The position numbers and the translations under genes are program-made. From a virus: a stretch of 45,112 nucleotides of DNA. The notes below the pieces were generated by a model, which was given only the letters and a program-made list of their open reading frames with translations, was not told where the DNA came from and did no database searches. The stretch is from positions 1 through 45,112 of IMG/VR virus record IMGVR_UViG_3300021976_000032; one strand, 5' to 3'. Shown in pieces: positions 1,278-45,097 of the stretch (the stretch's first letter is position 1; each line of letters opens with the position of its first letter).

Positions 1278-2036
1278 TCAACGAATGGACAACGGACGGC
1301 CGACCCGGACCGAATCGGCGACGCGGCGAACGGCGATCAGGCTATAAACGGCGACCCCGTGCCGTCGGCCGACGGGACCGATCCACCCGTTCATTTTCCA
1401 CCGCCGCAACGTCTCGACCGGCCGGCCTACTTCGGCGGCTATCTGGCGCAACGTGCATGAGTCGGCCTGTTCGGCTAACAGTCGATCAATTTCGGCGGCA
1501 CTCGTCCAGGTCCGGTGACATCCGGTGCACACCCACCACGCTTTACCGTCCCGAGGTTCTATTACCCATTCGCACCGGGGGCAATGGTATGTGACCTCGG
1601 GGCGGACCCCGCACGCCCGTTCTAGGTCGCGGTGCATTCGGGCTATGGCGGTCACGAACGCCGGCCATTGGGCGGCTATCGCGTCGACGTGTGCGGCTAG
1701 CCATTGGCACAGGTCGGCGGGGGTGGCGGCCGGCGTCGGGGCCGGCAGGGCCAGGGCGTGCCGAGCCCGGTAGGCCCACAGCCACAGGGTGCCGGCGACA
1801 CCGTGCCGGGCGTGATGGTCGCCGGGGCGCCAGGTGGCCCAGTCGGGTTTGCGGTGGGCGGCCAGGTCAACCACGTTCACCGACAGCGGCGAACGGGTGT
1901 CCAGCGGCCGGCCGGGCGGCCTTGGCATGTCGGGGTCGGCGGAACCGCTGCCAAGGCGTAGGAACCCTCCGAGGCGGGCAAGTAGGGCGGGCAGCTCGGC
2001 TAGTTGGCGTCGGGTCGTGGTCAGGGCGTCAGTCAT
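1278..2036 (-). CDS. Zinc-ribbon and helix-turn-helix DNA-binding protein (252 aa)
   Basis: The N-terminal two thirds is alpha-helical with no recognisable motif. Around residues 150-175 a CPRC ... CTGC pair forms a zinc ribbon. The last ~60 residues look like a MerR/HTH_17-type domain (LRQIAAEVGRPVETLRRWKMNG). Proteins of this build are common last genes in actinophage early operons and are usually annotated as HTH proteins. A role as transcription regulator or origin-binding protein is inference. GAGG precedes the ATG at 2036. Tandem terminators follow directly. Confidence 0.75.
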   Translation of the reverse strand: MTDALTTTRRQLAELPALLARLGGFLRLGSGSADPDMPRPPGRPLDTRSPLSVNVVDLAAHRKPDWATWRPGDHHARHGVAGTLWLWAYRARHALALPAPTPAATPADLCQWLAAHVDAIAAQWPAFVTAIARMHRDLERACGVRPEVTYHCPRCEWVIEPRDGKAWWVCTGCHRTWTSAAEIDRLLAEQADSCTLRQIAAEVGRPVETLRRWKMNGWIGPVGRRHGVAVYSLIAVRRVADSVRVGRPLSIR

Positions 2037-2055
2037 GGGCGTACCTCAGGGAGGG

Positions 2056-2529
2056 CTAGAACGGGCATTGGGCGGCCTCGGCGGGGTTGGGCGTCTCTCT
2101 GACCACAGGTACGAACACGGACGCCTTGACGGCCTCGGGCGGCGGCTCAGGGCCGCACCGGTGCTCGGCCAACACGTCACCGGCACCGATGGGCGAACGG
2201 TCTCGGATGTGCCACGGCTCACGGGCCGTCAACAGGAACCGGCCACAGGACCGCGTCAGCCGCACCGTGGCCAAACCGCCGAGCCGGGCCAGGGCTTCAC
2301 CGAACGGCGACAGCGGCACCGGATCGGCCCTGACCATGAACGCGCAACGGTCACCGTCAAGGCCGGCAATGACGGGCCGGCGGCACTCGGGACACCGGCC
2401 ATTTCGGGCATGCCTCGGGCCGACTTTCCCGACCGAGGCGTCCTTAATCAGATTCAAGAGTAGGGCATATGACACGTCATACCGGCTTCCGACATAAACC
2501 GACCCCTCGCGCATTACGTGATAACACAT
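2056..2529 (-). CDS. Putative zinc-binding protein (157 aa)
   Basis: The protein carries a CPEC motif near residue 47 and further Cys near residues 61, 93, 124 and 155, suggesting one structural zinc site. Family not recognised. The ATG at 2529 has GGA in front (cggaaaaaa); an internal Met at 2514 lacks any ribosome-binding site. A 117-bp gap upstream separates it from the helicase gene, so it may have its own promoter. Function unknown. Confidence 0.65.
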   Translation of the reverse strand: MCYHVMREGSVYVGSRYDVSYALLLNLIKDASVGKVGPRHARNGRCPECRRPVIAGLDGDRCAFMVRADPVPLSPFGEALARLGGLATVRLTRSCGRFLLTAREPWHIRDRSPIGAGDVLAEHRCGPEPPPEAVKASVFVPVVRETPNPAEAAQCPF

Positions 2530-2646
2530 TTTTTTCCGTATGGTGAAAGTTCCCTAGTGAAAGCGACATTGAGTGTTTGTAGCATTTAGGGTCAACTAAC
2601 CCGATTTTCGTGGGGGTCGGTATGACAGCCGTCATATATGTCATCC
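2530..2646 (-). promoter_or_regulatory. Intergenic leader/promoter region
   Basis: This is an AT-richer gap between the helicase stop and the next leftward gene. On the minus strand it contains TTGACC (a -35 match) and on the plus strand GTATGACAG...GTCATA, a broken palindrome near 2620-2636. No convincing -10 box could be placed, so the promoter call is tentative. Confidence 0.35.
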
Positions 2647-4380
2647 TCATTCCGGCCCCGTGGTGGCCCATCGAATTACGCGCCTATTTCCGTCGCGCTC
2701 ATCCCGAATGTCACCGATGGCCGCCAACCTATGGACGGCCTCACCGAGGTAAGCCACGTCCCGCCCGACCTTGCGCCGGAGGTCCGACCAACCAATTTCG
2801 AGGTCGGCGGCCAGGTAGCGCCGGATATTGGCAACCACCCGGCGCGTGGCGGCCTCAATTACGGCTTCATCGGTCGCCACGGCCCGGCCGGCAATGACGG
2901 CTTTACGCCCTTCCTCGGCTTGGCGTTCCTTAATGGTCAGCGTGTTCTGTATCCCGGCCCGGGTTCGGTCGGAGACGGCCATGACGACGCCCGATAGCTG
3001 CCAGTCCTCATCCGTCATCACGGCGCGGCCATCTAGCACGGCCAGGGCGTAGGCCACTTTTTCTCGCGCGAATAACGCGTGGCCGTCTAGCGCGTCCCCC
3101 TCATCCCTTGCCCGGGCGGCGGCACTGTTCCGGACCAAGTCGGCAACTTGATCAGGCACCGGGATTCGCCGGCGGCCCCCGTCGTTCAGGTCGACCGGCA
3201 GTAGGTTCCATTCGGGCGTTTTGAATGGCCAGGGCGCCGGCTGTTCGGGCGGTGTGGCGGTAATGGCCGGGTCGGTGGCACGGAGCCATATGAACCGTTG
3301 CGGGGTGCCGCCGTCACTGTCGTTGATCAACGGTCCGGCCTTTTCGGGTTGCACGCCGCAGATGAGCCCGAGCCGGTACCCGTGCCGTTCGATGGGGATG
3401 CGTTTCAGCGCGTCGGCGTAGCCGAACCCGAGCCGTTCCCCCGAAAACGCCGACCGAAGCTGAGTGAGCAGGGTTGCCCCTTGGCGGCTTCCGAGGGCGG
3501 CCAGCGTGTCCACTTCGGGGCATGTGAACAGGACCGAGAATCGATCCATGATCACGTCATCTTTGCCCCGGTGGGCGTACTGGTGTGCGATCCCTTCGCC
3601 GGAGCCGACGGAGGCGGTGTAGATGGCCGGCCAGCGGATGGCGTCGGCGGCGGCGGATTCGGCGGCCCCCTTCCCGGCCCCTGACCGCCCCACCAAGGCC
3701 GCAAACAGGTTGAGACTTCCGGACCCACCGACCAAGCCGGGTAGGACGACGTTGGGCGGCACCACGGCCAGGGCGCGCAGTAGGGACACGCCCAACACGG
3801 CCCACGGTGAACACATCCGGGCCAACGCGAACAGTCTCAGGTGGGCCAGGTAGGGCCGGGCGTCCCAAAAGTCAACCGTCGTGTCGGTGACCTCGCCGGT
3901 GTCGGTGTTGATCACCTCCCGGGCTATCGAATCGATCGCATCAACGCCACCGTTGATCTTGGGCGCGTTCGGGTCGGGAACCTTGTCACGTGGCTTCCCT
4001 TCGGCCGCCCTCAGCCCGGATGCGATGGTCCGTTCTGTTTCGGTCAGGCTGAGGCCGCACCGTTGCCCGGCTTCGGTCAGGGTGTCGCGTACGTCGTCGG
4101 TCGTCAGGTGGCCGGCGTGGACGAGTTGCCCGAGCGCGAACGCGGCCCGGTTGAGCGTGTCGTTACGTTCCCCCTCGGTTTGTCCGCCGACGGTGGCGGC
4201 CTCCCGGGCCAGGGCGGCACTCCCGTACGCCGTAGCTGCCCCCTGTGGCCCGTGGAAACCGTTTAGGGGGTCAGTGCCCATGGTCGGCGTTCCTGAGCCG
4301 TTAGTGGGCCGTGTGCGGTTCAGCGCGTCCATAAAGCTGAGCCGGCCACCGCTGTCGTCGTCGCTCACCTCGCTTTTCAT
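2647..4380 (-). CDS. Replicative helicase / DUF3987-like ATPase (577 aa)
   Basis: A helicase-like ATPase expected to unwind DNA at the replication fork. The Walker A-like loop GRSGAGKG lies near residue 212. It is followed by a Walker B-type region (VLFTCPEVD) and a C-terminal helical domain typical of phage primase-associated ATPases. The reading frame stays open far upstream of the ATG at 4380. That ATG overlaps the primase-polymerase stop as ATGA, which fixes the start and implies translational coupling. In many actinophages the primase and helicase are one polypeptide; here they are two. The N-terminal ~100 residues are low in complexity and may be a linker. Confidence 0.8.
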   Translation of the reverse strand: MKSEVSDDDSGGRLSFMDALNRTRPTNGSGTPTMGTDPLNGFHGPQGAATAYGSAALAREAATVGGQTEGERNDTLNRAAFALGQLVHAGHLTTDDVRDTLTEAGQRCGLSLTETERTIASGLRAAEGKPRDKVPDPNAPKINGGVDAIDSIAREVINTDTGEVTDTTVDFWDARPYLAHLRLFALARMCSPWAVLGVSLLRALAVVPPNVVLPGLVGGSGSLNLFAALVGRSGAGKGAAESAAADAIRWPAIYTASVGSGEGIAHQYAHRGKDDVIMDRFSVLFTCPEVDTLAALGSRQGATLLTQLRSAFSGERLGFGYADALKRIPIERHGYRLGLICGVQPEKAGPLINDSDGGTPQRFIWLRATDPAITATPPEQPAPWPFKTPEWNLLPVDLNDGGRRRIPVPDQVADLVRNSAAARARDEGDALDGHALFAREKVAYALAVLDGRAVMTDEDWQLSGVVMAVSDRTRAGIQNTLTIKERQAEEGRKAVIAGRAVATDEAVIEAATRRVVANIRRYLAADLEIGWSDLRRKVGRDVAYLGEAVHRLAAIGDIRDERDGNRRVIRWATTGPE

Positions 4381-4964
4381 CGTGCTACCTCCCGTAGGTC
4401 GATCAAGGGCCGCCGCCACGTGTAGGGGCCGGGGTGGGGCACGTCGGGGCCGGGTGTGATCACCGACGGCGGCACGACGACATATCCGCCCCGCCCTCGG
4501 TAGTCGATCCCGGGCAGCATGGCGGCCCGGTTGCCGTTGCCGGTGGAACGCACATACAGGTGGGTGCCGCCGGGCCGGGGCGTGTTGACGACACCGACCA
4601 CATCCGGCATGTCGCCAAGCTGTGCCCACGACTGGACACCGGCCGGGCCGTCCACGTCGATCACGTCCACCCCGTGCCCGGTGGCGATGGCGATGTTGGC
4701 TGTGGGTAGCCGAAACCACCATGACCGGATGCGGTCCGCCTCGGTCGTGGCCTCGGTCAACCCTTTGGACCGCCACGTCGGGACTTTGGTGCCCGGGGAC
4801 AGCGGGAAGATCGGCAGACCGAACCCCGCATACCACAGGGCAGCACTGACCAGCGACACCGACGGCCGTGGCTCGGCGTCCAAGATCACGCCCAACGATT
4901 CGGCTAGGGGCCAGTTACCGTCCACCATGGCGTCACGGATCGATGTTTCAAGATCATCTGGCAT
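4377..4964 (-). CDS. Bifunctional primase-polymerase domain protein (195 aa)
   Basis: Matches the Prim-Pol (AEP superfamily) N-terminal fold: LWYAGFGLPIFPLSPGTKVP, then NIAIATG, the catalytic acidic DVIDVDGPAG (about residues 96-105), TPRPGGTHLYVR with its conserved His, and GRGGYVVVPPS. It should synthesise primers for the helicase encoded next, with ATGA overlap. At 195 residues it is the bare catalytic domain. It overlaps the preceding gene by 11 bases. Confidence 0.85.
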   Translation of the reverse strand: MPDDLETSIRDAMVDGNWPLAESLGVILDAEPRPSVSLVSAALWYAGFGLPIFPLSPGTKVPTWRSKGLTEATTEADRIRSWWFRLPTANIAIATGHGVDVIDVDGPAGVQSWAQLGDMPDVVGVVNTPRPGGTHLYVRSTGNGNRAAMLPGIDYRGRGGYVVVPPSVITPGPDVPHPGPYTWRRPLIDLREVAR

Positions 4965-5268: not shown

Positions 5269-5796
5269 TCAGAACGGGGGGGCCGCTGTCGGGGTGGCCG
5301 ACGCGTCCCAAGGCGAACCTTGGGCCGCTGCCGGCGGGGTGTAGTTGGCCGGCGGGGCCACATACTTAGCCGAGTAGAGTTTCCGGCGTCGTCCTACCGG
5401 TCCTTCCTCGGCGTCAAACCTGAGGGTCAACGTTCCGCCGGGGTCGATCGTCCCGGCCCGGGTGGCGATTTGGGCGGCGGCCAGGGCGGCGGCCGTGGTC
5501 GTTTTGCTTTCGGGCTTCCGACTTCCCTTGAGGTAGACGCACCGGATGCCGTCGTCATCCTGTAGGGCCGGGTCGAAATCCTTCAACCCTTCGCCGCTAC
5601 GCAACGTCGTTTGCAGGGTCACGCGGTGCATGATCATCGCATCGCCATTGTCGAACGTCTTAACCTGCCCCGTGGTCAAGTCGGTCTGTTTGAGGTTCTT
5701 CTCAAACGAAATGATCACGCCGGTGACCTCATCGCCGGGGTTGCGGAATTGGAAGCTTCGGCCACCTTCGCCACCGAGGTCTAGACCTTCACTCAT
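5269..5796 (-). CDS. Putative single-stranded DNA-binding protein (175 aa)
   Basis: Beta-rich body of about 140 residues (GDEVTGVIISFEKN, then LTLRFDAEEG), a Pro/Ala-rich flexible tail and a C-terminal tip ending PPF. This resembles the layout of SSB proteins, whose acidic tail ends in PF and recruits partners. The tip here lacks the usual run of Asp. It lies between nuclease and primase genes. AAAGGAG gives a strong ribosome-binding site before the ATG at 5796. The call rests on layout and context rather than on a clear OB-fold signature. Confidence 0.5.
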   Translation of the reverse strand: MSEGLDLGGEGGRSFQFRNPGDEVTGVIISFEKNLKQTDLTTGQVKTFDNGDAMIMHRVTLQTTLRSGEGLKDFDPALQDDDGIRCVYLKGSRKPESKTTTAAALAAAQIATRAGTIDPGGTLTLRFDAEEGPVGRRRKLYSAKYVAPPANYTPPAAAQGSPWDASATPTAAPPF

Positions 5797-5848: not shown

Positions 5849-6088
5849 TTAGGCCGCGAACGGGCCAGGGGGCGGGCCAGCATCGGTCGGCTCGGATTCC
5901 GTTTCGGGGGGTGCATTGACCGCGTCGGGGAGGTCGGTGCCGTATTCCACGAACACGGCCCGGTAGCCGGCCAGGGCGGCCAGCCGTAGCGCCTTGAGTT
6001 CCGAGGCGTACGGGACGACGGTGGGGATAGGGCTGTCGGGCGGGTAGGTCAACCACACACCTGTGCGACGAAGAACTTTTCCGGTCAT
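5849..6088 (-). CDS. Hypothetical early protein (79 aa)
   Basis: Short protein beginning MTGKVLRRTGVWL, with an amphipathic middle and an acidic Pro-rich tail (PPETESEPTDAGPPPG). Family not recognised. The upstream gene ends in TGA at 6091-6093, so the junction is TGA-TC-ATG. AAAGGA is well spaced for the ATG at 6088 and too close for the one at 6094. Confidence 0.65.
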   Translation of the reverse strand: MTGKVLRRTGVWLTYPPDSPIPTVVPYASELKALRLAALAGYRAVFVEYGTDLPDAVNAPPETESEPTDAGPPPGPFAA

Positions 6089-6378: not shown

Positions 6379-6680
6379 GGCGCGTCCATCATGTGGGCCA
6401 GGGCGTCAGCCTCGGCGGCGTCAATGGACGGTTGGTCGGGGCCGTGCCAGCCGCACCCGCACGCGCCCCGCTCGGCCCCGAACAGGGACGTTTCGATGTA
6501 GGGGTGGTGAGTCATCGGCCGGCGTACGTTCCGCTTGGCGGATGTGATGTGCCGAGCAAGATCAACTTCCGCGTGTCCGGTGGAGTCCCGGCGGGTGCCC
6601 GTCCAACCACACACGCACTCGGCGCGGGCAATCCATGTGGTCACCCGGCCAGCGTGCTCAGCCTTGGCCGGCTTAACCAT
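6375..6680 (-). CDS. Two-module CxCGWxG zinc-finger-like protein (101 aa)
   Basis: Holds two copies of a short module: ECVCGWTG followed by a helix ending in ARH, and ACGCGWHG followed by a helix ending in AHM. The neighbour at 6673-6867 carries a third copy (CSCGWRG ... RRH). A Cys-x-Cys plus downstream His arrangement suggests metal binding. The ATG at 6680 is preferred because GAGGGT precedes it; a GTG at 6689 is the alternative. Function unknown. Confidence 0.65.
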   Translation of the reverse strand: MVKPAKAEHAGRVTTWIARAECVCGWTGTRRDSTGHAEVDLARHITSAKRNVRRPMTHHPYIETSLFGAERGACGCGWHGPDQPSIDAAEADALAHMMDAP

Positions 6681-6867
6681 CGGACTCACCCTCGGCCTTG
6701 ACCTCTCGATAGTGCCGCCTCAGGTCGGCTCGGGCGGTGTTCGGTGATGACCGGTTAGGGCCGCGCCACCCGCACGAACATTCACCCCGTGAGAAGTTGA
6801 AGCCCGACCAATCGGTGATCACCTGCCCGTCATGCTTGCTGTCGTCGGTGTCGATCATGGTTGTCAT
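6673..6867 (-). CDS. Single-module CxCGWxG protein (64 aa)
   Basis: Carries the module CSCGWRGPN followed by a helix with RRHYR, matching the two modules in the next gene. The ATG at 6867 overlaps the upstream nuclease stop (ATGA). It looks like a product of local duplication. Function unknown. Confidence 0.65.
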   Translation of the reverse strand: MTTMIDTDDSKHDGQVITDWSGFNFSRGECSCGWRGPNRSSPNTARADLRRHYREVKAEGESDG

Positions 6868-7910
6868 GAGGCCGCCGCCAACGATTCAAGGGCGGCCTTG
6901 CGGGCGGTCGCGAGGTCGGTGTGGTGCGCCTTCCATCGGGGGCCGGCGGCCTGCCACAGTTTGATCAGGTCGGCCTCGGTCGGTGCCGAATGGATAGCCT
7001 CAGAAAGTGCGGCGTCGACGGGGTCCATCATGGTTCCGGTGCTGACCGGGGTGGCGGTGTCGGTGACCTCGGGCGGCTCGGGGATGAACAGGGTGCGATC
7101 CCGGGACCGGTAGCGGCGGGCGGCCAGGCAGGTGGCGACCGCTTCCCACCCGGCACGGATGTCTAGCCACTTCAACTCACACGTGCCGGTGTAGGCGTCC
7201 AACGCGATGATGATTCCGTGATCAAGATCAACATTACCGATCGGGATACGTTCCCCGTCGTGCACGTCATAGATGACACTGTGGGCATAGATGGCTAGCT
7301 GTGCCGCCATCTTGCCGACGCCGTACTGTGTCTGCCCGGTTTTCGTGTCGGCAATGATCAACTTCTCATAGCCAGGAATGCGGACGATGCGGTCAGCGGT
7401 GCCGCCGATCTTGTGCTCATCGTGCACTAGGAACCGTTCCACGTGGACCATGTCCAGATGGGCGGTGGCTTCCTGATAGGCGGCCAGGTGGGGCAGGTAG
7501 GTGTCGGGCACCGGCCCGACTTCCTGACCCCGGTCCATCCGTTCGGTGATCTTGTGCAGGGCCGTGCCGATCGTGGCGGGGGCCGATGCGGCGGCGGCTT
7601 CCTTGGCCTGTTCGGTGACCCGGTCCATGTCTCGGCACCACCGCTTGTATCCGTCGGGGTCACTCTGGCGAACCGGCGGCATACCGTGGCCAGCTACAGC
7701 CATCCGAAGATCGGGACGCATGCCGAGCCCGACCGCCACCATACGTTTCTGCCACATGTTGAGGTTGTAGGTGTCTTCGATCGTGCCGGCCACGGTCGTG
7801 CACCGGGTATAGGCGACCGGGTCACCCCCGCCGGGGGGCATGATGAGCGGCCGTTCCCACCGGTCGCGTTTGATTTCGGGGGGCACAAGATCAACTACGC
7901 CATCCGTCAT
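6864..7910 (-). CDS. Cas4/RecB-like PD-(D/E)XK nuclease (348 aa)
   Basis: Expected to be a DNA exonuclease used in recombination or replication. The PD-(D/E)XK core is visible in order: GGTADRIV (catalytic Asp, about residue 185), IIADTKTG (Asp-x-Lys, about residue 203) and AAQLAIYA (the QxxxY-type helix). A C-terminal helical region of ~80 residues follows. The four Cys of an iron-sulfur cluster are not evident, so it is closer to RecB-like phage exonucleases than to classical Cas4. ATGA overlaps link it to both neighbours. No Cas genes or CRISPR array are present. Confidence 0.8.
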   Translation of the reverse strand: MTDGVVDLVPPEIKRDRWERPLIMPPGGGDPVAYTRCTTVAGTIEDTYNLNMWQKRMVAVGLGMRPDLRMAVAGHGMPPVRQSDPDGYKRWCRDMDRVTEQAKEAAAASAPATIGTALHKITERMDRGQEVGPVPDTYLPHLAAYQEATAHLDMVHVERFLVHDEHKIGGTADRIVRIPGYEKLIIADTKTGQTQYGVGKMAAQLAIYAHSVIYDVHDGERIPIGNVDLDHGIIIALDAYTGTCELKWLDIRAGWEAVATCLAARRYRSRDRTLFIPEPPEVTDTATPVSTGTMMDPVDAALSEAIHSAPTEADLIKLWQAAGPRWKAHHTDLATARKAALESLAAAS

Positions 7911-8600: not shown

Positions 8601-8819
8601 TCAAATGTCCGCCTTGATCGGTCGCTGATCGACGTAGATTCCTTGAGCGGTGCGCCGACAGGCGTTGCACCATGGCTCATTCCCGTCACGGTGCTTAACG
8701 GTGCTGTGCCGGCCAGGGCACCGCTTGATCAGTTCTAGACGTAGCTCGGCCCACGCCTTGGCGATCCGGCGGCGGTGCCGCTCGAATACCTCATCTGTGG
8801 CAATAGTGCTGAGGCTCAC
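8601..8819 (-). CDS. Small CxxC protein (72 aa)
   Basis: Basic helical N-terminus (ERHRRRIAKAWAELRLELIKRC), then WCNACRRTAQG. The GTG start overlaps the previous stop as GTGA. Cys residues near 34, 51 and 54 plus His could bind zinc. Function unknown. Confidence 0.65.
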   Translation of the reverse strand: MSLSTIATDEVFERHRRRIAKAWAELRLELIKRCPGRHSTVKHRDGNEPWCNACRRTAQGIYVDQRPIKADI

Positions 8820-9102: not shown

Positions 9103-9240
9103 TCAATGTTGATCGTGCGGTGTTGCGGCTAGCCATGCCTTAGCCCGAGCGAACAGTCGTCGCTTGGTCCGGTGCCGAACCCATCCGATGGCGGCTAGCC
9201 AAATGATCAAGATGGCGGCGTGGATCAGGACAGCGGTCAC
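9103..9240 (-). CDS. Micro-membrane protein (45 aa)
   Basis: GTG start at 9240 overlapping the RuvC-like stop (GTGA). The product begins with a hydrophobic segment (VLIHAAILIIWLAAIGW) followed by a strongly basic tail (RHRTKRRLF), the positive-inside pattern of a one-span protein. Stop TGA at 9103-9105. Size and layout make it a genuine small gene, though its role is unknown. Confidence 0.65.
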   Translation of the reverse strand: MTAVLIHAAILIIWLAAIGWVRHRTKRRLFARAKAWLAATPHDQH

Positions 9241-9722
9241 GCCACGTCAGCCGCGTACACGGCCAGGGCGTACGCCTGCCAGATGTCCTTTTTGAACCCG
9301 TAAAACCATCCGGGCTCATCCTTGGTGCCCTTGCCGTGGTTGCGCTGGCCGGGCGCGAACCGATCGACCAACGCCTGTGTGATGTTGGAATCATTGGCCC
9401 GGCCCGATCGGCAATGGTGAAGCTTGATCGGGTTCCGGGTGATCAACTTGGGTTCGGTGTGCGGCCACCATGACGCCCGTACCGCCTCGGCGAACCGGCC
9501 GACCCACACGCACGTTTCGAACACGTCGGCACCAACCGCCATGCCGTATGAGGCGACCATTTCAATCACGACCCGGTCGGCCTCGATTTCGTCGTAGCCG
9601 CGCACGATTTTCGTGCGGAGGGTGGCGTTGTCGATCTTGCCGAAGATCATCGGGGAACATTCCTCATCGATGACCACGTAGGCCGATTCCGTCGTGCCCG
9701 GATCTATGGCGAGTAGCCTCAC
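9237..9722 (-). CDS. RuvC-like Holliday-junction resolvase (161 aa)
   Basis: RNase-H-like fold nuclease expected to cut branched DNA before packaging. The first catalytic strand reads LLAIDPGTTESAYVVID (Asp near residue 6), the second acidic motif is VVIEM, and a late acidic pair sits in the C-terminal helix (QAYALAVYAADV). Length suits phage RuvC proteins. The GTG at 9722 overlaps the stop of the micro-membrane gene (GTGA) and follows a GGGGGG stretch, so the much longer N-terminal extension is rejected. Confidence 0.8.
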   Translation of the reverse strand: MRLLAIDPGTTESAYVVIDEECSPMIFGKIDNATLRTKIVRGYDEIEADRVVIEMVASYGMAVGADVFETCVWVGRFAEAVRASWWPHTEPKLITRNPIKLHHCRSGRANDSNITQALVDRFAPGQRNHGKGTKDEPGWFYGFKKDIWQAYALAVYAADVA

Positions 9723-9823
9723 TTCGGCACCCCCCATAGGGCGATCCCGGCCGCGACGATCCCGGCCAGCAAGATCAGATAGCCGCCGGCCACGATCAGG
9801 AACCCGCCGAAATCCCGCTTCAT
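9719..9823 (-). CDS. Micro-membrane protein (34 aa)
   Basis: ATG at 9823 overlaps the previous stop (ATGA) and TGA at 9719 overlaps the RuvC GTG. The product is one hydrophobic span (FLIVAGGYLILLAGIVAAG) with a charged KRD head and a short tail. The overlap at both ends is good evidence that it is translated. Function unknown. Confidence 0.7.
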   Translation of the reverse strand: MKRDFGGFLIVAGGYLILLAGIVAAGIALWGVPK

Positions 9824-10050
9824 TGCGCGGCCTGACGGTAGCCGTAGGTCCGGTGCGCGGTCTTGCACTCGTCACAGCGGCACCCATAGTTGGTGTAGGC
9901 GTTATAGGTGCCATGCAAGTGGTCGGGGATGGGGTTGCCGTACCGCTTGAGCCGTGCCCGGTAACAGACTTCGGTGTGGGCGGCCCGGCAGGCGTCGCAG
10001 CGGCACCCGTGGTTGGTGTAGGTACCGGCCTTGCCGTGCACCCAACTCAT
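9820..10050 (-). CDS. Tandem-duplicated CRCDxC zinc protein (76 aa)
   Basis: Two near-identical halves: GTYTNHGCRCDACRAAH and AYTNYGCRCDECKTAH, each followed by a Tyr-Arg end. Cys-x-Cys-xx-Cys plus His in each half suggests two small zinc knuckles. ATGA overlaps on both sides. Single-module relatives occur in actinophages without known function. The duplication is clear in the sequence. Confidence 0.7.
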   Translation of the reverse strand: MSWVHGKAGTYTNHGCRCDACRAAHTEVCYRARLKRYGNPIPDHLHGTYNAYTNYGCRCDECKTAHRTYGYRQAAQ

Positions 10051-13261: not shown

Positions 13262-13618
13262 ACCTGTGTCGTGCCTAGTCACAGCCCGGTTCCGTGAGAC
13301 CAAGGGTGACCCCGACCGAGGGACAGCAACGGGGGCCGGCAAGCAAGCGGCCATGTACCCCGGCCGGGGCGTGCCCATCGTAACCGGCTCGGGTGAACGT
13401 TTCACCACCGCGTCACCACCGCGCCCCCACCCGCCCCGTTCCATGATCAACCGCATGATCATCTTTTGTATGTCCTGTCATACCTGTACCCACACGGGCA
13501 ACCGATATCTCCGATTTGGTAGCCAAGCTATGTGCGAAAGGGGTAGGTTCCCGTTCACGCTCATCTAGCATGGAAGTTGTGAAGCAACACACAACCACCA
13601 ACGAGAGGCGGGGAGTCA
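13262..13618. promoter_or_regulatory. Divergent intergenic region (~360 bp)
   Basis: No supported gene; a 79-aa minus frame overlaps the inverted repeat and lacks a start signal. It contains GTATG-TCCTGT-CATAC near 13469-13484 and a small hairpin (GTTGTG...CACAAC) close to the first rightward gene. It should carry the promoter for the rightward block. Confidence 0.5.
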
Positions 13619-15191: not shown

Positions 15192-15223
15192 CGTACCTAC
15201 AGATGTGGAACTATGTACCTACA
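15192..15223 (+). promoter_or_regulatory. Paired TGTA-nn-TACA operators before second rightward operon
   Basis: CGTACCTACA (15192-15201) and TGTACCTACA (15214-15223) start 22 bp apart, the same spacing as at 10797/10819. TATGTA at 15212-15217 may be the -10 of the promoter. A leader with GCAAGCAAC and a ribosome-binding site follows. Confidence 0.6.
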
Positions 15224-16083: not shown

Positions 16084-16085
16084 TC

Positions 16086-34302: not shown

Positions 34303-34695
34303 CTACAGTTTGCCAGCGGCCCGCCGTTCGGCTAGCCACGTATCAAGCTCGGTGATCGTTGTGCCCTTGACTTTGCGGTGCCGGGGCGCGGACTGATCAC
34401 GGGTGATCATCCGGCCGGGCACCTTCACCGGCGGTTCGAATCGACGCCGGCCCCCGTATTTGAGGTGGACCTGTTGGGCCAGGGTGTTGAGCAGGCCGGC
34501 CAACAGTTGGGTTCGGAGGTCCATCCATTCCCAATGTTTGGGGTGCAGATCCTTGCCGACCGCCGAATCCGGCGGCAGATGCTTAATGATTACCTTGAGG
34601 TCGCGCCACGTAAGGATCGGGGTACCGAGCCAATCCAACCGCAAGCCGAGTTTGATCAACTCAAACTCGACAGCGGTTGAATGGTCGGTGATCAA
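34303..34695 (-). CDS. Tail assembly chaperone, -1 frameshift extension (T-like part)
   Basis: This frame is -1 relative to the upstream chaperone and opens before its stop codon. The first in-frame start here is a TTG at 34695, but expression as a G-T fusion by slippage at 34713-34719 is expected. The sequence is helical (STAVEFELIKLGLRLDWLG) and ends in a basic region (MITRDQSAPRHRKVKGTT). Such fusions load the tape measure with tail protein. Confidence 0.7.
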   Translation of the reverse strand: MITDHSTAVEFELIKLGLRLDWLGTPILTWRDLKVIIKHLPPDSAVGKDLHPKHWEWMDLRTQLLAGLLNTLAQQVHLKYGGRRRFEPPVKVPGRMITRDQSAPRHRKVKGTTITELDTWLAERRAAGKL

Positions 34696-35080: not shown

Positions 35081-35641
35081 TTAGGAATCGTCCTCAACAT
35101 CCTTGTACTCGTGATAGAACTTCCCGGACTCGTCACGGAAACACTTGATCGTGATTTCATACTGCTTAAGCTCGGTCCGCGTGTACTGACGTTCGCCACC
35201 GCCCGGCGTGGTGACCTGACCATCGTTGATCACCAAACGGCCGACGTGATCACCGTCTTTCAGCTCGAACACGAACCGGCGATGGGGCATGACCTCGCCA
35301 TCGAACGACAGATGGATTGCGTCGCCAACGACGGTGACGTTGTCTTCACCGAACACCTCGGCCAGGGTGACCGCGCCGGACTCAATGAGGGTCAAGGTGA
35401 CCTCGGCGCCGCGTTCGGTCAGCAGCGTACGGACAACGTCCCCGCCCCAATCCTTACGGTCTTCGGTCTCAACCTGAGGGGTGACGGTGACGCCATCCTC
35501 GGACACGTAGCCAAGCTCGGAGCTATAGCCGACTAGGGCGGCGGCGGCGGTGGTCGGCGGCACGGCGGTTTCAAGATCACCCGCGTATGCATACCCGCCG
35601 ACCTTGGGGGAACCTACTTCCACAAATTCGGTACTAGGCAT
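35081..35641 (-). CDS. Major tail protein (186 aa)
   Basis: Beta-rich tube subunit: MPSTEFVEVGSPKVGGY, then TPQVETEDRKDWGGD, LTLIESGAVTLAEVFG and a C-terminal KQYEITIKCFRD. Length and position upstream of the chaperones are typical of siphophage tail tube proteins. GAAGGA precedes the ATG. Confidence 0.85.
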   Translation of the reverse strand: MPSTEFVEVGSPKVGGYAYAGDLETAVPPTTAAAALVGYSSELGYVSEDGVTVTPQVETEDRKDWGGDVVRTLLTERGAEVTLTLIESGAVTLAEVFGEDNVTVVGDAIHLSFDGEVMPHRRFVFELKDGDHVGRLVINDGQVTTPGGGERQYTRTELKQYEITIKCFRDESGKFYHEYKDVEDDS

Positions 35642-36692: not shown

Positions 36693-37109
36693 TCACCAAT
36701 CCTCGGTGATCACCGGGGCGGCGGTCCGTTCACTGACCATGGGCACTGACACCCCATCGGTGCATCGGTACCGGCTCAAGATCAACTTGTCCATCTTGGT
36801 CAGCCACGCCGCATCCCCGCTGGCCACATCCTCGGAATAGCTGGTCGAGAATGGCCCGGAGGTCTGTTGCATGTGACCGATCGGGATTGGCTCATCGGCG
36901 CCGGCCCGGGCCAGGGCGCGAACGACGATGTTGGCGACGACGCCGGCAACAGCCGGGGGTGTTGGGATAGGCAGCGGGCACACGACGTACGCGCGGACGA
37001 TGGCTGACGCGTCGATGATCAAGACTTCGACGCGCGCCAATTCGGCCCCGGTAACCTCCCGGCCCAACCTAAGTTCAACGTCCCCGACTGTTGCTAGCGG
37101 CTCATCCAT
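36693..37109 (-). CDS. Head-tail adaptor (138 aa)
   Basis: Begins MDEPLATVGDVELRLGREV, the start typical of gp15/Gp19-like connectors that bind under the portal, with further helices (VLIIDASAIVRAYV, VVANIVVRALAR). Directly follows the capsid gene. Confidence 0.7.
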   Translation of the reverse strand: MDEPLATVGDVELRLGREVTGAELARVEVLIIDASAIVRAYVVCPLPIPTPPAVAGVVANIVVRALARAGADEPIPIGHMQQTSGPFSTSYSEDVASGDAAWLTKMDKLILSRYRCTDGVSVPMVSERTAAPVITEDW

Positions 37110-38142: not shown

Positions 38143-38649
38143 TCAACTAGGCCGCATCGCTCGCATAGCGGCGGCGGCGGCCTGTTTGGGTGTCATGGCG
38201 TCTTGATCAGACTTCGATGCCCCGGACTTAAACCCACCTTTGGGGTTCAACGTCCGTGACTTCGCCGCCTCATCGCGCCACGACAGGATCGATTCGGCGG
38301 CCTTTTCGAGTTCCTCGCGCGTACTGCCGGCCAGGGCCGTAAGTGGCACGCCCTTGGCGCCGGCCACCTCGGCCCGTAGTGCGGAAATCTCCGCATCCTT
38401 GGCCCGTCGTTCGGCGGCGTCGGCGCGCTCGGTCGCCTTTTGAATCTCCGACTTGGTCGCCTCGGACGCCTTGTCAAGCTCGGCGGCCTTGGCTTTCAAC
38501 TCGTCATAGTCGGCAAACTTGCCACGCTCGCGCGCGACCCGGTCACCGATGATCCGATCTAGATCGGCTTGCGATGCGGGCGGTGTGAACGCGGCCGCCT
38601 TGGTGGCGGCCCCTTGATCATCAGCACCCTTAGTTGCATCGTCGGTCAT
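38143..38649 (-). CDS. Scaffolding protein (168 aa)
   Basis: Highly charged coiled coil (YDELKAKAAELDKASEATKS ... ATERADAAERRAKDAEISALR) with a Gly/Lys-rich end, directly upstream of capsid, as in most HK97-like phages. GGAAAGGAAAA and CGATCATG mark the start at 38649. Confidence 0.85.
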   Translation of the reverse strand: MTDDATKGADDQGAATKAAAFTPPASQADLDRIIGDRVARERGKFADYDELKAKAAELDKASEATKSEIQKATERADAAERRAKDAEISALRAEVAGAKGVPLTALAGSTREELEKAAESILSWRDEAAKSRTLNPKGGFKSGASKSDQDAMTPKQAAAAAMRAMRPS

Positions 38650-38802: not shown

Positions 38803-39537
38803 TCAGGCCGGCGGCAACAGGTCCGGGCTATGCCGGTTGTCGGAAATCCACTGGCGCACGCGGGCCAGGTCTTCCGGCGATTGGTTGCCCTTGCTGGCCG
38901 TGAATTGGATGACCGAAGCCGGCTCGCCACCGCCGTAGGCCGGCTCGGCCGAACAGTTGCAGTTGTCGTGTGAGGCGAACCGGGCCGAGTCGGCGGCATA
39001 AACCTCGCCGCGCCCAATCAACATCCGGCAGAATTCACACGACCCGACCCCGACGCGTCGCCATCCCCCGACGTTGGGCGCTGCCTTGATCGTTTCCGTG
39101 ATCGTTTGCCGGCCACCGTTCAGGATGTGCCGTTTCGCCGCGCCGGCCATGAGTCGTTCCATGGCCGCCGCCGCCGCTCGGACCTCCCACCCGTGGGCGG
39201 TCAGCGACTTGATCCCGACCGGGCCGGTGACCCGTAGGGATGTCTCGGCGGCCCTACGTGCCACGGTGACGGCCGGAACGACCACGATGGGTGCCCGTAC
39301 ACCCTCGGCCAGGGCAAAGGTCCGTAGATAGGCCGTGGCGGCCGCCGCTGAGGCTTCCCGACCTGCCATCACCAGGGGCAGCACGACGGCCAACCACACC
39401 GCCGTGGTGCCGTCCACGTCGTCGGGGTCGAGTAGCCGCCACGCCTGCCGGATCATCCGTTGATAGCGGACCGCCACAACATCCTGTGCCGCCCGGTGTA
39501 GCCGGGTGGCGGTGGCCCCGAGTTGGGTTGTGGTCAC
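38803..39537 (-). CDS. MuF-like minor head protein (244 aa)
   Basis: Helical N-terminal portal-binding part, then the MuF signature: GVGSCEFCRMLIGRGEVY ... FASHDNCNCSAEP (about residues 160-200), a Cys/His cluster. Helps genome ejection or head assembly. GTG start at 39537. Confidence 0.8.
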   Translation of the reverse strand: MTTTQLGATATRLHRAAQDVVAVRYQRMIRQAWRLLDPDDVDGTTAVWLAVVLPLVMAGREASAAAATAYLRTFALAEGVRAPIVVVPAVTVARRAAETSLRVTGPVGIKSLTAHGWEVRAAAAAMERLMAGAAKRHILNGGRQTITETIKAAPNVGGWRRVGVGSCEFCRMLIGRGEVYAADSARFASHDNCNCSAEPAYGGGEPASVIQFTASKGNQSPEDLARVRQWISDNRHSPDLLPPA

Positions 39538-39626: not shown

Positions 39627-41204
39627 TCATTTCTCCTCAAGGCCGGCGGCGTCGGACTCGGGCAGTCTCAGGCTGACCGGGATTGCGCCGGTGAACGCCA
39701 AGCCCTCAAGACCGAGCCGGGCCGCCGCGTTTTCGGGTTCGACGCCGGCCCGGATAGCGACGCCGAGCGCGTCAAACTTGGCCTTAAGCTCGGTCGCCTC
39801 CGCTGCCCCGTCGGACTGTTGGTCTTGTCCGCCGCCACCCTCGGCGCCGGCCAGGGATTGAAGGGCCGTCATGATGTCTTCGGAGGCTGTGAGCCGTTCC
39901 CGAATGGCCGAGATTTGCGGCTGTGTCAGCCCGGGAATCATGGACAGGATGAGGTCGATCGGGACGCCGGCCGAAGCCAACTTGGTGACGCCGTCCACAA
40001 CGGAGCCGAACGATCGGGCCTCAGTGTCTTTCCACACGACCTCGGCGCCGATATCGTCGGCGGCTTCGGTGCCCCGCATAGCCTGATCAAGCCGTAGCGC
40101 CTGTTCGTGTGACTCCCCGAATGATTCCCGCTTGCCGCCGATCTTGCGCTGTTGGTTGGCTTCACCGGCGGCCAGGGCTTCAGCCGAAAGGTTGATCATC
40201 TTGCCGGTGACTTGTGACGGGGAAATCTGGGCGATCATCGCCACGTGTTCCATCATTTCGGCCAGCAACGCGTTATAGGGTTCGATCGACGCGGGGGCCA
40301 GGGTGGTTGCGTTCACGTCGGGGTCATCGAACGACCACACTCGGGACGCGGCGGCCTTGAGTACCTTGTCCGGTGTGGATGTCCATCCGCTGATCACCTT
40401 TTGCGGGAAAGCCCCGAACCGGGCCACGATCAACCGGTCATTGTTGACCTCATTGATAGCTAGCTGAGGGATGATCAACGGTTCGACCTCGCCCATGATC
40501 AAATCATCGGCGTCACGGCCATTCACGTACCGCACGACAGGACAGACGGGTGCTCCGTCGATCACGGCCCCGTGTTCGATCGGTGAGCCGACCTCGAATT
40601 GCCCTTCCCGCGCGAGCAACGTCAACGACTGGGCACGGGAACCGATGATCGGCGTCGACCCGAAATTCAACGGGTAGACAGCCTCGGCGTCGATCAGGAA
40701 ACCCTTGATCGTGGGCTGGCCGTCGGTCTCGTCCCGGAACAACTCAAGGGCGTACTGAGGCCACGCGTCGATCTGTGGATCTTCATAGACCGCCACCAAT
40801 TGGCGCGGCGATCGTGGACGCCACACAATCCGGCCATCGGCACGCTTGGTGATCGTCAGATAGGACACGCCATAGTTGCAGGCCGCGCGGTGCACCTCGG
40901 CCTGACGGGCATCCATGCGCTGTTCCTGCCACGACGCCCATGCCCGGGCGTCGTCGGTGGCGTTGGCGTGACGGTAGCCGACGACGGACAGGTTTTGCAC
41001 GAACGAGTCGACAACTAGGCCGATCACATTCTTTCGGCTGATCCGGGCAATGTCTTTGATTTCTTGCTCGGCGGCCTCGGGCACGTTGGGCGTACCAAGA
41101 TCACCACGCGCGAATCCGTAGATGCGATCATGCCGGGGCCGTTCCGCCTCATGTAGCCGCCGCATGCGGAACACCAACGAGTTGATTTCGTTCCGATCAA
41201 GCAT
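39627..41204 (-). CDS. Portal protein (525 aa)
   Basis: SPP1 gp6-like portal: N-terminal RMRRLHEAERPRHDRIYGF, wing strands with YLTITKRADGRIVWRPRSP, stem region (LLAEMMEHVAMIAQISPSQ ... EALAAGEANQQRKIGG) and a Gly/Gln-rich crown. It forms the packaging ring at the vertex. ATG at 41204 preferred to GTG at 41207 by spacing from AGGGGG. Confidence 0.88.
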   Translation of the reverse strand: MLDRNEINSLVFRMRRLHEAERPRHDRIYGFARGDLGTPNVPEAAEQEIKDIARISRKNVIGLVVDSFVQNLSVVGYRHANATDDARAWASWQEQRMDARQAEVHRAACNYGVSYLTITKRADGRIVWRPRSPRQLVAVYEDPQIDAWPQYALELFRDETDGQPTIKGFLIDAEAVYPLNFGSTPIIGSRAQSLTLLAREGQFEVGSPIEHGAVIDGAPVCPVVRYVNGRDADDLIMGEVEPLIIPQLAINEVNNDRLIVARFGAFPQKVISGWTSTPDKVLKAAASRVWSFDDPDVNATTLAPASIEPYNALLAEMMEHVAMIAQISPSQVTGKMINLSAEALAAGEANQQRKIGGKRESFGESHEQALRLDQAMRGTEAADDIGAEVVWKDTEARSFGSVVDGVTKLASAGVPIDLILSMIPGLTQPQISAIRERLTASEDIMTALQSLAGAEGGGGQDQQSDGAAEATELKAKFDALGVAIRAGVEPENAAARLGLEGLAFTGAIPVSLRLPESDAAGLEEK

Positions 41205-41225: not shown

Positions 41226-42629
41226 TCATACGAAAACGGCATCCTGCATTCGCTTTACGGTCTCGGCGCCGAACAGGGCCAGGGTGCCGGCCACTAGCGG
41301 CGAGATATCGACGTCGGGGTCGGACCGGTCGAACCCCCAGCCGCCGGCCGCGCCGATCGGTCGTTTGATCGCACCGAGTAGCGCCACCTTGATCGACTCT
41401 TGCCCGCTGTGGGTGACGTGGCCGGTGTTGGCCTTGTCGACCAACAGCCCGCACGCCTTGGCCATGTCGGGCGCGGTGGATGTCACAACCCGTAGCCGGC
41501 GGCCCTTGAGCGGTGCGACCAGGGCGGCGGCCGGGCTCATCGCATCGATCACGATCGGCGTACGCCGGGTGGCCCTCAAGATCAGCCATTCCATGGCGGC
41601 CGATGCGTCGGGGCCGGCCCACACTTCCTCAAGGTGGGTTGTCTCCCCTTCCCGCCACGCGGCGGCAATCGAGACAAAACGATCATGATTCATGTCGACG
41701 GCCAGGGCTGAGGGGGCCACGCCGTCAGCCGGGCCAACGTCGGCCAGGGTGTCCCACACGTACGGACTGATCACGGCGCGGTGTTTCTTGACCTCATCCC
41801 ACACCCCGAGCGCTTCCCGGCGGAAACTCTCGGCCGTCAGATTCTTCCTCAGCCGCAACATGGCCCGCTCGGGCGTGCGGCTCGGGAATGACGGGTTGGC
41901 TTTGCGCCACTGTTCGCGGTCATCGATGTCAGCGGCACGATCGGCGGAAAGCTCTATATATAAGGTTTCCCGAGAGTCACCGGCCAGGGCTTCCTGCCTG
42001 ATCATGGTGAAGACTTCGCCCATGTCTTTCGGGCGGGGAGGCGTGCCGGCCATGATCGTTAACGGGTTCGGCGCCACGTTCTGCGCCGCGAGCATGTCTT
42101 CCATGGCCGATTCACCAAGAATCTGCGCCTCATCGAACACCAAAATATCGACCTTGCTGAACCCTCGGCCGAAGCCCTGTTCCCTTGCACCGAACAGAAC
42201 CCGTGACCCGTTGGTGAAGTTGACCGCCTCATCGCCTCGGCCACGGACGATCTGTCGAACGTGAGCCTTGACCTTGGCCTGCTGAGCTAGCCCGGTCATC
42301 GATGCGAACGTCTCTTTAGACGTTTTCACCCGGTGCGCCGTCCAGATGGCGGTGATCTTCGGGTTGATCAAGCACAACGCGAAAATGATTGCGGCCATGA
42401 GATAGGTTTTGCCGACCTGCCGGGGAATCGACATGGCGACCGTGTCCGAGGCGTAAAGGCCGTCGTCACGCGTGGCCAAGATCAGCCGGCCGGCCCCGTC
42501 TTGCCACCCGTCGAACACCCACCCGAACCGCTCACAGGTGGAACGGACGCGGGGCCAATCGGTGCCCGCTATGCCCGAGGGTTGGATGATGTGGCGGGCA
42601 ACATCAGATAGCCGACTGATCCCAACCAC
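41226..42629 (-). CDS. Terminase large subunit (467 aa)
   Basis: Packaging ATPase and nuclease. Walker A IPRQVGKTYLM (about residue 70), Walker B VDILVFDEAQ (about 160), coupling motif MAGTPPRP, and nuclease acidic residues in ALAVDMNHDRF and IVIDAMSP. Ends with KRMQDAVFV. GTG start at 42629 overlaps the small subunit by 26 bases; the start could be slightly downstream. Confidence 0.92.
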   Translation of the reverse strand: MVGISRLSDVARHIIQPSGIAGTDWPRVRSTCERFGWVFDGWQDGAGRLILATRDDGLYASDTVAMSIPRQVGKTYLMAAIIFALCLINPKITAIWTAHRVKTSKETFASMTGLAQQAKVKAHVRQIVRGRGDEAVNFTNGSRVLFGAREQGFGRGFSKVDILVFDEAQILGESAMEDMLAAQNVAPNPLTIMAGTPPRPKDMGEVFTMIRQEALAGDSRETLYIELSADRAADIDDREQWRKANPSFPSRTPERAMLRLRKNLTAESFRREALGVWDEVKKHRAVISPYVWDTLADVGPADGVAPSALAVDMNHDRFVSIAAAWREGETTHLEEVWAGPDASAAMEWLILRATRRTPIVIDAMSPAAALVAPLKGRRLRVVTSTAPDMAKACGLLVDKANTGHVTHSGQESIKVALLGAIKRPIGAAGGWGFDRSDPDVDISPLVAGTLALFGAETVKRMQDAVFV

Positions 42630-42903
42630 CCGAATCGTCAGCCTTGGCGGTGATCGAATCCGGCCCGTCGGACACCGTCAGCGTTTCAATCTCGCGGCTG
42701 ATTTCGATCTGCCGGCGCATGAGCGGCGACAGGTCACGCGGGTGTGTCTCCGGATCGTCAAGGGCCATGGCCAGCCGGCGACGCATGGCGCGCAATTCCT
42801 CGACCCGGGTGCCACGCTCGGCGGCGTCAAGGATCGGCGTCTTAACGGCCGCGTCGCCATGCTCAACCGCGCGTAGAACAGTGTTGCGGACCATCGTTTT
42901 CAC
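42604..42903 (-). CDS. Terminase small subunit-like protein (99 aa)
   Basis: Short helical protein (LDAAERGTRVEELRAMRRRLA ... LSPLMRRQIEISREIETL) just before TerL, the typical place and build of actinophage small terminases. GGAGG lies too near the GTG at 42903 and a little far from the ATG at 42894; either may be used. Confidence 0.65.
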   Translation of the reverse strand: MKTMVRNTVLRAVEHGDAAVKTPILDAAERGTRVEELRAMRRRLAMALDDPETHPRDLSPLMRRQIEISREIETLTVSDGPDSITAKADDSGGWDQSAI

Positions 42904-43057: not shown

Positions 43058-43357
43058 TCACCACACCCTATGAGTGGTGTATGTACGGGCCGCTAGCTCA
43101 CTGGCCAGGGCGTCGGACTTGGCACGGTTGCACGTGTTGTGGGCGGGTTGCTTGTTGTCTAGCGTGTCGTCCCCGCCCCGGTTGATCGGGATTACATGAT
43201 CAACTACGAATGAGCGCAGATCGGGATAGGACAGTGCATAGTCGATGTCTGCACCGCATATGCCGCATGGTGGCTCGCCACGTCGGATGACACGACGGTG
43301 ACGATCACGAATGGTCGTGTTCCCACGTGGCGTAGCGATCACATCGTCACGTTTCAT
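43058..43357 (-). CDS. HNH endonuclease (99 aa)
   Basis: Zinc-supported HNH: CGIC (about residue 31), DHVIPINRGGDD (catalytic His, about 53), NKQPAHNTCNRAKSD. Terminase-linked HNH proteins are needed for cos cleavage and packaging in several phages. Start at 43357 after GATC; in-frame ATGs up to 43369 lack a better ribosome-binding site. Confidence 0.85.
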   Translation of the reverse strand: MKRDDVIATPRGNTTIRDRHRRVIRRGEPPCGICGADIDYALSYPDLRSFVVDHVIPINRGGDDTLDNKQPAHNTCNRAKSDALASELAARTYTTHRVW

Positions 43358-43603: not shown

Positions 43604-43693
43604 GGTGTGGGTGGCCTCTCTGTGAGGGGTGGCCCATGATGATCATGGTGGACGCCTGAGGGGTGGGGGGTGTCTGCACACCACCCCCTGTCT

Positions 43694-43722
43694 GGGGTAG
43701 GGGGGTGGTGCAGGGGTGGGGG
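43694..43722 (+). other. G-quadruplex motif in G-rich gap
   Basis: Runs of 4, 6, 4 and 5 G separated by 2, 7 and 1 bases on the plus strand. It sits right after the repeat-protein stop (43732), within a ~130-bp gap also holding a GGGGGTG/CACCACCCCC hairpin. It could pause leftward transcription. Confidence 0.6.
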
Positions 43723-43731
43723 TGGTTGGCC

Positions 43732-45097
43732 CTACCCCTGGACTAGCCCTAGGACGGGCTTAGCTCCGTCCGGGGTACCTATCCACAGTTGCCCTTGCCT
43801 GATCACGTCACCGTCTCGCCATACCATGATCAACGCCCCCGTATTGATCGCAACCACAACCCACATGGTGCCTAGCGTGGCTTGCCCTGTGCTGGCCTTG
43901 AGGCCGGCCGCTTGGACGCCCCATTGGTGGGCCAGGGTGGACGATCCCGACGCTGACAGCGTGCCCTCAACACTCATCCCCCATGCTGTGGTGAGGATGG
44001 CTGTTCCGGTGTTGGTGCCCCCCGATACCGCCAAGATCACCCATTGATGATCAACAGCGGCCGTTCCCCCCGATGGACTTGTGCCCTCGGCGGTGGCGGA
44101 CCATGTCGTGTCAAGGGTGGCGTTACCGACGGACGTTCCACCCGACACGGCCAGCATGTTCCATACAGTGGAAACCGCGGCCTCACCTAGTGAAACTCGC
44201 CCACCGTCGGCCTGTGCAGCGTATTCCATGATCAACACGGCATCGCCGGACAACGGATGTGCACCGCTGGCCAACACCACATAGGTGTGGGTGGCCACAG
44301 CTTCCCCGGCCGACGTATGGACGCCGGCCGCTGTGGCCACGTATAAAGCCGCCATGGTTGCGGCCCCCTTGGGGGTTCGCTTCCCGGCGGAAGTGACCAC
44401 GTAGACCGCTGAGGCGCTAGCCGTGCCCTTGGGCGTCCGCTTGCCCGTGTTGGTGATCACGTAGGCCGCTGAGGCGCTAGCGGTGCCCGAATTCGGCACA
44501 CTGAGGGCGGCCACGGTGAACGCACCTGTGACTATTTCACGATCCGGTGAAAATGAACCGGTGCCATAGGTCGGAGTTGACGCGGGGGTGATCGACGTTG
44601 CCGTGATGTTGATGGCATGCGCCACGGTCAGATAGATGCCGTCGGTCGGTGAGGCGGCGGCGGCGGCGTCCAAGTCTTCTACCCATGGCGCCGTCCATAC
44701 CTGTGATGGCGCCGCACCGCCCGAGGTGCATGATCGACACCGAGCCGCAAGGATCACTTGTGCCGTGCCAGGGAGGCCAGTGAACGCCGGCCACGTGTCA
44801 TCACTGGGGGTGGAAGAGTTCGAACCGGTGTAGGTCGATCCGGCCGGAAACTCATACAGGCACCACCCGACCGGGTAGTTGCTTCCGTTGTGTGTAACGG
44901 TGACCGAGGTTTGCCCGGCCCCTGTTGCTGTCCACATGGACAGCTCGGCCGATGACACCGGCTGTTGTCTCTCAGTCCACCCGGCGGCAATCGTATTGGT
45001 GACCGCCCCGCCCATGAACAGGACCAACAGACTGCCCGCTGTGGCCGTGAACCCGAACGTGACGGTATGGCTAGTGGTGCCGTTGCGGGCCGCCGTG
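43732..45097 (-). CDS. Tail/appendage repeat protein, main part (joins 170..1)
   Basis: Carries on from position 1 at 44971; 44972-45097 repeats the left end. The full protein has 469 residues. A beta-rich N-terminal domain (~250 residues, with YEFPAGSTYTGSNS and WTAPWVEDLDAAAAAS) is followed by about eleven ~20-residue repeats of the form alternating hydrophobics, Y/W-V, xxxG, xxxxG (for example GKRTPKGTASASAVYVVTSA). It looks like a repetitive stalk or decoration. Placement before HNH/terminase is unusual for a tail gene. Confidence 0.7.
44972..45097. repeat. Terminal direct repeat, right copy
   Basis: Identical to 1-126; marks circular closure. The next 15 bases (45098-45112) do not continue the left-end sequence but match its reverse complement at 130-144. 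Confidence 0.9.

Follow-up and report, generated by a model that had tools for sequence, protein, structure and literature searches.

We asked why a single octamer, GGCCAGGG, should stand dozens of times on one strand of a phage genome and never on the other. The window analysed here, that is, the whole stretch of DNA, is a complete linear IMG/VR record of 45,112 bp. The virus is a temperate siphovirus of Actinomycetota with terminase, portal, protease, capsid, tail and serine integrase genes; for replication and recombination it encodes a Prim-Pol and the helicase that partners it, as well as a PD-(D/E)XK exonuclease and a Holliday junction resolvase. Most genes run leftward, and a rightward block lies at 13.6-20.1 kb. 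The nearest proteins, 50-62% identical, belong to phages or prophages of Nocardia, Gordonia, Nocardioides, Mycobacteroides and Mycobacterium, and no DNA match for the right half of the window was found in the phage collection.

An exact count over the whole window gave 54 copies of GGCCAGGG on the plus strand and 0 of CCCTGGCC (Table 1). The imbalance is thus stronger than in a preliminary description of this DNA, which had reported about 50 copies on one strand and none on the other, and whose twelve example positions are all correct. Its expectation of two to three copies per strand from base composition agrees with the 2.7 and 2.5 that we computed for the plus and minus strands; an order-2 model gave 2.9 and 1.7, so that about 2-4 copies are expected overall. 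When octamers were ranked by strand bias, as had been suggested there, GGCCAGGG came out as both the most polar and the most enriched of the window. We scanned loci of at least 8 kb, and also a wider set, for polar, enriched and dispersed octamers: the window reached a score of 27.8, far ahead of the 14.7 for the best octamer in any other locus of that size compared. The same scan picked up a sequence in TM4, which we take to be its known start-associated sequence, as well as pieces of the T7 promoter, and therefore detects real signals. The copies cover the whole window at 1.2 per kb, slightly more evenly than random (spacing CV, P~0.04; largest gap 2,419 bp, P~0.02), and single-base neighbours of GGCCAGGG are rare.

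Table 1. Copies of the polar octamer, the pentamer exception and the genes discussed in the text.
Feature	Position	Strand	Remark
GGCCAGGG	1749..1756, 2287..2294, 3040..3047, 3227..3234, 3766..3773, 4207..4214	+	
GGCCAGGG	5479..5486, 5863..5870, 5969..5976, 6396..6403	+	
GGCCAGGG	8711..8718	+	gap between genes
GGCCAGGG	9261..9268, 11537..11544, 12987..12994, 12999..13006	+	
GGCCAGGG	14539..14546	+	rightward gene, G-GCC-AGG-G (rare Arg codon)
GGCCAGGG	15432..15439	+	rightward gene, GGC-CAG-GG (Gly-Gln-Gly)
GGCCAGGG	17277..17284	+	gap in rightward block
GGCCAGGG	18272..18279	+	rightward gene, G-GCC-AGG-G
GGCCAGGG	19011..19018	+	rightward gene, GG-CCA-GGG (rare Pro codon)
GGCCAGGG	19346..19353	+	rightward block, overlapping ORF
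GGCCAGGG	19513..19520	+	rightward gene, GGC-CAG-GG
GGCCAGGG	20586..20593, 21048..21055, 21389..21396, 22475..22482, 23335..23342, 23455..23462	+	
GGCCAGGG	23506..23513, 25925..25932, 26777..26784, 28229..28236, 28827..28834, 29349..29356	+	
GGCCAGGG	29696..29703, 31727..31734, 33232..33239, 33571..33578, 33718..33725, 34246..34253	+	
GGCCAGGG	34477..34484, 35360..35367, 36909..36916, 38329..38336, 39307..39314, 39849..39856	+	
GGCCAGGG	40170..40177, 40296..40303, 41277..41284, 41700..41707, 41742..41749, 41982..41989	+	
GGCCAGGG	43103..43110	+	gap
GGCCAGGG	43930..43937	+	
Sole CCAGG on - (CCTGG on +)	43737..43741	-	only exception to pentamer polarity
Helicase/primase partner of Prim-Pol	2647..4380	-	PHROG DNA polymerase/primase
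Prim-Pol domain protein	4377..4964	-	PF09250, 6e-33; candidate reader if the octamer is a priming site
PD-(D/E)XK exonuclease	6864..7886	-	
Holliday junction resolvase	9237..9914	-	
Rightward gene block	13600..20100	+	tells genome polarity apart from coding polarity; holds 7 GGCCAGGG, 0 CCCTGGCC
Terminase large subunit	41226..42629	-	
Terminase small subunit	42604..42903	-	marks packaging end

The coding sequences allow selection on protein to be separated from selection on DNA; the gene models were made in this analysis and single-gene boundaries may be off, and the coding result rests on totals. In the leftward genes, [A/P/T/S]-Leu-Ala is spelled xCC-CTG-GCC at 40 of 50 sites, so that the plus strand reads GGCCAGGG, and both Pro-Trp-Pro sites are spelled to the same effect; the corresponding [APTS]-Leu-Ala spelling is found at 2/24 sites in TM4, 0/21 in Reyja and 5/28 in phiGD17-1. 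Leucine is CTG in 40 of the 41 NCC_GCC contexts, as against 17 of 204 other contexts that precede a non-GCC G codon. The rightward block holds 7 copies: five in assigned coding sequences, the one at 19346 in an overlapping ORF and the one at 17277 in a gap. The preliminary description had put six copies there, which was one too few, and was right about the shared strand and the copy in a gap. The peptides that permit the octamer in rightward genes (Ala-Arg-[GAVDE], Gly-Gln-Gly and [RWG]-Pro-Gly) carry it at 7 of 10 sites, a tally in which two ORFs overlap and one copy is possibly counted in two frames; in leftward genes these peptides have it at 0 of 34 (P=3e-6). The rightward copies are often spelled with the rare codons AGG or CCA. 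Coding direction, as had been argued earlier, is not the explanation.

Codon-aware null models gave the same answer. Synonymous-codon shuffles, a test of the kind that the preliminary description had named as able to refute it, yielded on average 17 copies on the plus strand and at most 24. Independent codon sampling from the phage's own usage predicted 5.9 copies in leftward genes, where 38 are seen (P~1e-18), and 0.54 in rightward genes, where 5 are seen (P=2e-4). There is next to no chance that the octamer is a by-product of codon usage and strand composition, since these nulls fail in both gene directions and refute that account as a full explanation, even though 40 of the 45 copies in called leftward coding sequences lie in an Xaa-Leu-Ala frame. 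Because the nulls fail and the octamer is used in both gene directions, selection for GGCCAGGG is positive and acts on DNA; it is genome-polar and close to saturation, with about 80% of the places permitted by the proteins occupied.

The polarity extends to a shorter unit, in the form of a loss. The bare pentamer CCAGG stands 94:1 in favour of the plus strand. Within coding sequences, the minus strand has 1 CCAGG where about 37 are expected, whereas the plus strand is neutral (79 versus 82 expected). The other one-substitution pentamers of CCAGG are near symmetric and, therefore, the purged unit is exactly CCAGG. Avoidance of CCWGG restriction was rejected, as CCAGG and CCTGG are two readings of one palindromic site and polarity would be impossible. 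Orientation-dependent (Type III) restriction, which the preliminary description had not raised, is consistent with the reverse pentamer having been lost completely.

A third feature concerns the palindrome TGATCA, also near saturation with 151 copies (3.35/kb); it occupies 57 of 69 permitting peptide sites in the window, versus 6 of 20 in TM4. Among the sampled Actinomycetota genomes (sets of 395 and 396), none exceeded about 0.65/kb. One may tentatively imagine a two-signal code, GGCCAGGG and TGATCA each at about 80% of permitted sites, that some directional machine reads in an actinobacterial host not yet sampled; the octamer could then represent the first example of a Chi-like signal recognised by an end-processing enzyme of actinobacteria.

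We then looked for the same signal elsewhere. Across 79 loci with related portal proteins (919 kb), GGCCAGGG stood at 17:42, about 0.06/kb, and the signal therefore appears private to this lineage or to its host. Conservation in related phages, the lack of which the preliminary description had named as evidence against its proposal, is absent at 50-62% relatedness. Scans of viral contigs with the major capsid protein and the primase returned no relatives, and pattern scans of viral contigs returned no second phage with the octamer code; one locus considered as a second carrier (L243) was rejected, being TGATCA-rich and otherwise unlike the window. The host was not found by a TerL scan of genome contigs, by GGCCAGGG in 395 Actinomycetia, by TGATCA in 395 and 396 genomes or by the serine integrase in 396 genomes. 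One genome whose GGCCAGGG-to-control ratio ranked among the highest of the 395 Actinomycetia (G269) was set aside, as the motif is not polar there; since this genome proved mixed, the plus-only hits returned for many genomes were read as a listing artefact. GGCCAGGG was not polar in any sampled stretch of actinobacterial chromosome, where the polar octamer is CGGGGGAG (29:0, 15:0, 13:0 and others). Of the earlier view that the pattern bears the hallmark of Chi-like or DNA-orienting sequences, one part stands: the octamer is genome-polar, dense and no coding by-product. The other part, a role as a Chi, packaging or translocase sequence, is a proposal; the sampled stretches of actinobacterial chromosome show no polarity of the motif.

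In our preferred reading, GGCCAGGG is recognised at the level of DNA by a machine that encounters the phage genome in a single direction, and the signal is most likely Chi-like; we give this a probability of roughly 0.36, and our confidence in any single mechanism is below one half. Three things make a Chi-like reader seem most likely: what kind of selection is seen, how evenly the copies are spread, and that the phage apparently lacks an annealing recombinase and a nuclease inhibitor. A host helicase-nuclease of the AdnAB/RecBCD type would enter at one end of the phage DNA; on meeting GGCCAGGG in the orientation that it can read, it would cease to degrade and begin recombination; each extra copy would slightly help a phage that apparently lacks both functions of its own. 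GGCCAGGG displays over-representation beyond composition and one-sided orientation, both of which are criteria for Chi. The phage has an exonuclease and a Holliday junction resolvase, while neither a single-strand annealing recombinase nor a Gam-type protein turned up among the PHROGs-scanned proteins; many small genes have no assignment. Lambdoid phages without a recombinase over-represent Chi, with a median O/E of 3.1 and a density of about 0.2/kb (PMC3784561). However, the density of GGCCAGGG is about six times that value, no polarity was seen in the actinobacterial chromosome stretches tested, the octamer is absent from the phage relatives, and Chi need not be purged in reverse down to a pentamer. 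Because Chi alone does not require the loss of the reverse core, we invoke a second cause: the purge of reverse CCAGG is probably separate and Type III-like, and an orientation-dependent restriction of CCAGG might act simultaneously as a second layer. In mycobacteria and their relatives the main end-processing enzyme is AdnAB, whose regulation by Chi-like stages has been called unclear and described as unresolved (PMC13309787). A phage in which nearly every permissible site has been turned into a polar octamer would provide a concrete candidate sequence and orientation for this control.

Alternatively, the phage might be escaping restriction by a Type III (or Type ISP) enzyme whose target is CCAGG and which cleaves DNA only where two such sites face each other. 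All CCAGG sites would face one way, making the genome uncuttable, and either orientation would serve. We regard this as possible but doubtful. An asymmetric core of 5-6 bp standing one way, with a purge exact to five letters, is what such an enzyme would leave. Moreover, among 230 sequences only one other shows such a polarity of CCAGG, a Bifidobacterium rousetti prophage, with CCTGG 31 : CCAGG 0 on the plus strand of its contig, confined to the prophage. The purge there affects both gene directions (0 versus 68 and 0 versus 9 expected), CCAGG is the only pentamer of its kind, and the genome of its host contains a complete Type III restriction system with EcoP15I-like Mod and Res, a candidate for an enzyme acting on CCAGG. 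What this prophage has in common with the window is limited to structural genes (TerL 43%), and it lacks GGCCAGGG. Relative to TerL, its pentamer is oriented opposite to that of the window, in line with an orientation that is arbitrary on the genome map. On the other hand, we expected the same polarity in prophages of hosts that share the B. rousetti Type III specificity region, and this failed in the sole case available, Bifidobacterium G786: its Mod specificity region is 74-86% identical and its TerL-related prophage has no CCAGG polarity. In T7, all 36 EcoP15 sites have one orientation (PMC3874151); by our computation the EcoP15I site is at 1.6 times its expected count and no more polar than other T7 hexamers. 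T7 is therefore a precedent for purge and not for gain, and escape from restriction gives no reason why GGCCAGGG should be gained to near saturation, no gain in the permitted orientation being predicted. Two phages, distantly related, that both purge exactly one pentamer but in opposite orientations would form a natural counterpart of the T7 escape, and they suggest a general way of reading host restriction specificities from phage genomes.

It is unlikely that the octamer is a priming or assembly site of the phage Prim-Pol on the lagging-strand template of a one-directional fork. The phage does encode a Prim-Pol and its helicase partner, and the Prim-Pol of phage NrS-1 recognises an octamer, TTTGGTTA (PMC8718748). 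The copies are evenly spaced, and about 0.8 kb would match Okazaki fragments. However, no comparable polar octamer occurs in five phages whose Prim-Pol/helicase genes are related, the sign of the GC skew switches near 30 kb while GGCCAGGG keeps its orientation, and priming does not predict the reverse pentamer purge. A PDB search with the Prim-Pol gave nothing useful.

We consider it improbable that GGCCAGGG orients a packaging motor or a DNA translocase of the FtsK/KOPS type. We know of no polar packaging signal of such a kind, and the relatives of the packaging genes lack the motif. KOPS/AIMS are typically strictly polar and harmful when reversed (PMC5993296), but the sampled actinobacterial chromosomes use CGGGGGAG, which stands at 0/1 in the window. 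Very improbable, in our judgement, is a binding site for a phage DNA-binding protein like the stoperators of mycobacteriophages. Asymmetric, repeated, one-orientation sites are indeed known in actinophages (PMC9283540), but stoperators follow transcription and sit in promoters and short intergenic spaces, whereas the GGCCAGGG copies lie mostly within genes and are indifferent to gene direction.

Compared with known systems, the window shares traits with several. Like NrS-1, the phage carries a Prim-Pol replicase (PMC8718748); its octamer has a different sequence, and phages with related replicases show no polarity. With KOPS/AIMS it shares the strict strand polarity of an octamer (PMC5993296), yet GGCCAGGG is not the polar octamer of the sampled actinobacterial chromosomes and has no replichore context. 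Cluster A mycobacteriophage stoperators likewise are many asymmetric one-orientation sites in an actinophage, but they are 13-mers outside coding sequence that follow the direction of transcription (PMC9283540). The window differs from E. coli Chi (GCTGGTGG, read by RecBCD) in the sequence of its octamer, in a density of 1.2/kb versus about 0.2/kb, and in its 54:0 polarity, near saturation and purged reverse core; the likeness lies in an octamer that is over-represented in phages and whose orientation matters (PMC3784561), carried, as in the recombinase-less lambdoid phages, by a phage apparently without annealing recombinase or nuclease inhibitor. Finally, T7 has a barely enriched site, while the octamer of the window is strongly gained in a genome whose genes run both ways; with its short asymmetric core in one orientation genome-wide, as in T7 (PMC3874151), the purge in the window nevertheless resembles the escape of T7 from EcoP15I.

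The palindrome TGATCA occurs 151 times in the window (sites 170 to 44454), where only 5-10 copies are expected. It frequently lies at gene junctions, where a TGA stop codon is followed by TCA (TGATCATG), and the spelling NTG-ATC-A was found at 57 of the 69 [MVL]-Ile-[TNKSIMR] sites, versus 6 of 20 in the actinophage TM4. None of the sampled Actinomycetota genomes showed a TGATCA density above about 0.65/kb. A second, highly TGATCA-rich phage contig, L243 (IMGVR_UViG_3300047322_000407), holds 28 copies over 5.5 kb, and a TGATCATGATCA cluster at 5.2-5.5 kb accounts for half of these; its terminase is 31% identical to that of the window. L136 (NYZC01000117.1), a contig labelled as a Phycisphaeraceae MAG, encodes a terminase of actinophage type that shares 58% identity with that of the window; the bin is therefore probably mixed.

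Other words are strongly avoided across the whole window. The palindrome CCGCGG was seen once for 44-51 expected copies, and strong avoidance extends to the palindromes GGATCC (one copy), GGGCCC, CTGCAG, CAGCTG and GAGCTC (none), and, on both strands, to CGCAG, CCCAG, CTCCA and AGGAG.

Strict polarity of CCAGG (31:0) was observed in a prophage of Bifidobacterium rousetti (G008:C11, about 29.9-69.5 kb; loci L452-L455).

Coordinates of a repeat in the window and of a restriction gene pair in B. rousetti
Feature	Location	Remark
Direct repeat, ATGATCAACA-type, several copies	window 43186-44739	close to terminase end
Type III Mod/Res pair	G008 C11 485-490 kb	encoded by host of CCAGG-polar prophage

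Polar words were likewise found in actinobacterial chromosomes. In G269, GGCCAAGG (CCTTGGCC on the plus strand) is distributed 23:0 across 200 kb (contig 1, 1-200000). CGGGGGAG is strand-polar in the stretches checked in eight sampled genomes (G269, G372, G002, G317, G142, G284, G363 and G398), strictly so in all but G142 (5:1), the shorter stretches holding few copies each. We propose CGGGGGAG as a candidate KOPS-like sequence of the phylum, KOPS being the polar octamers that orient the DNA translocase FtsK.
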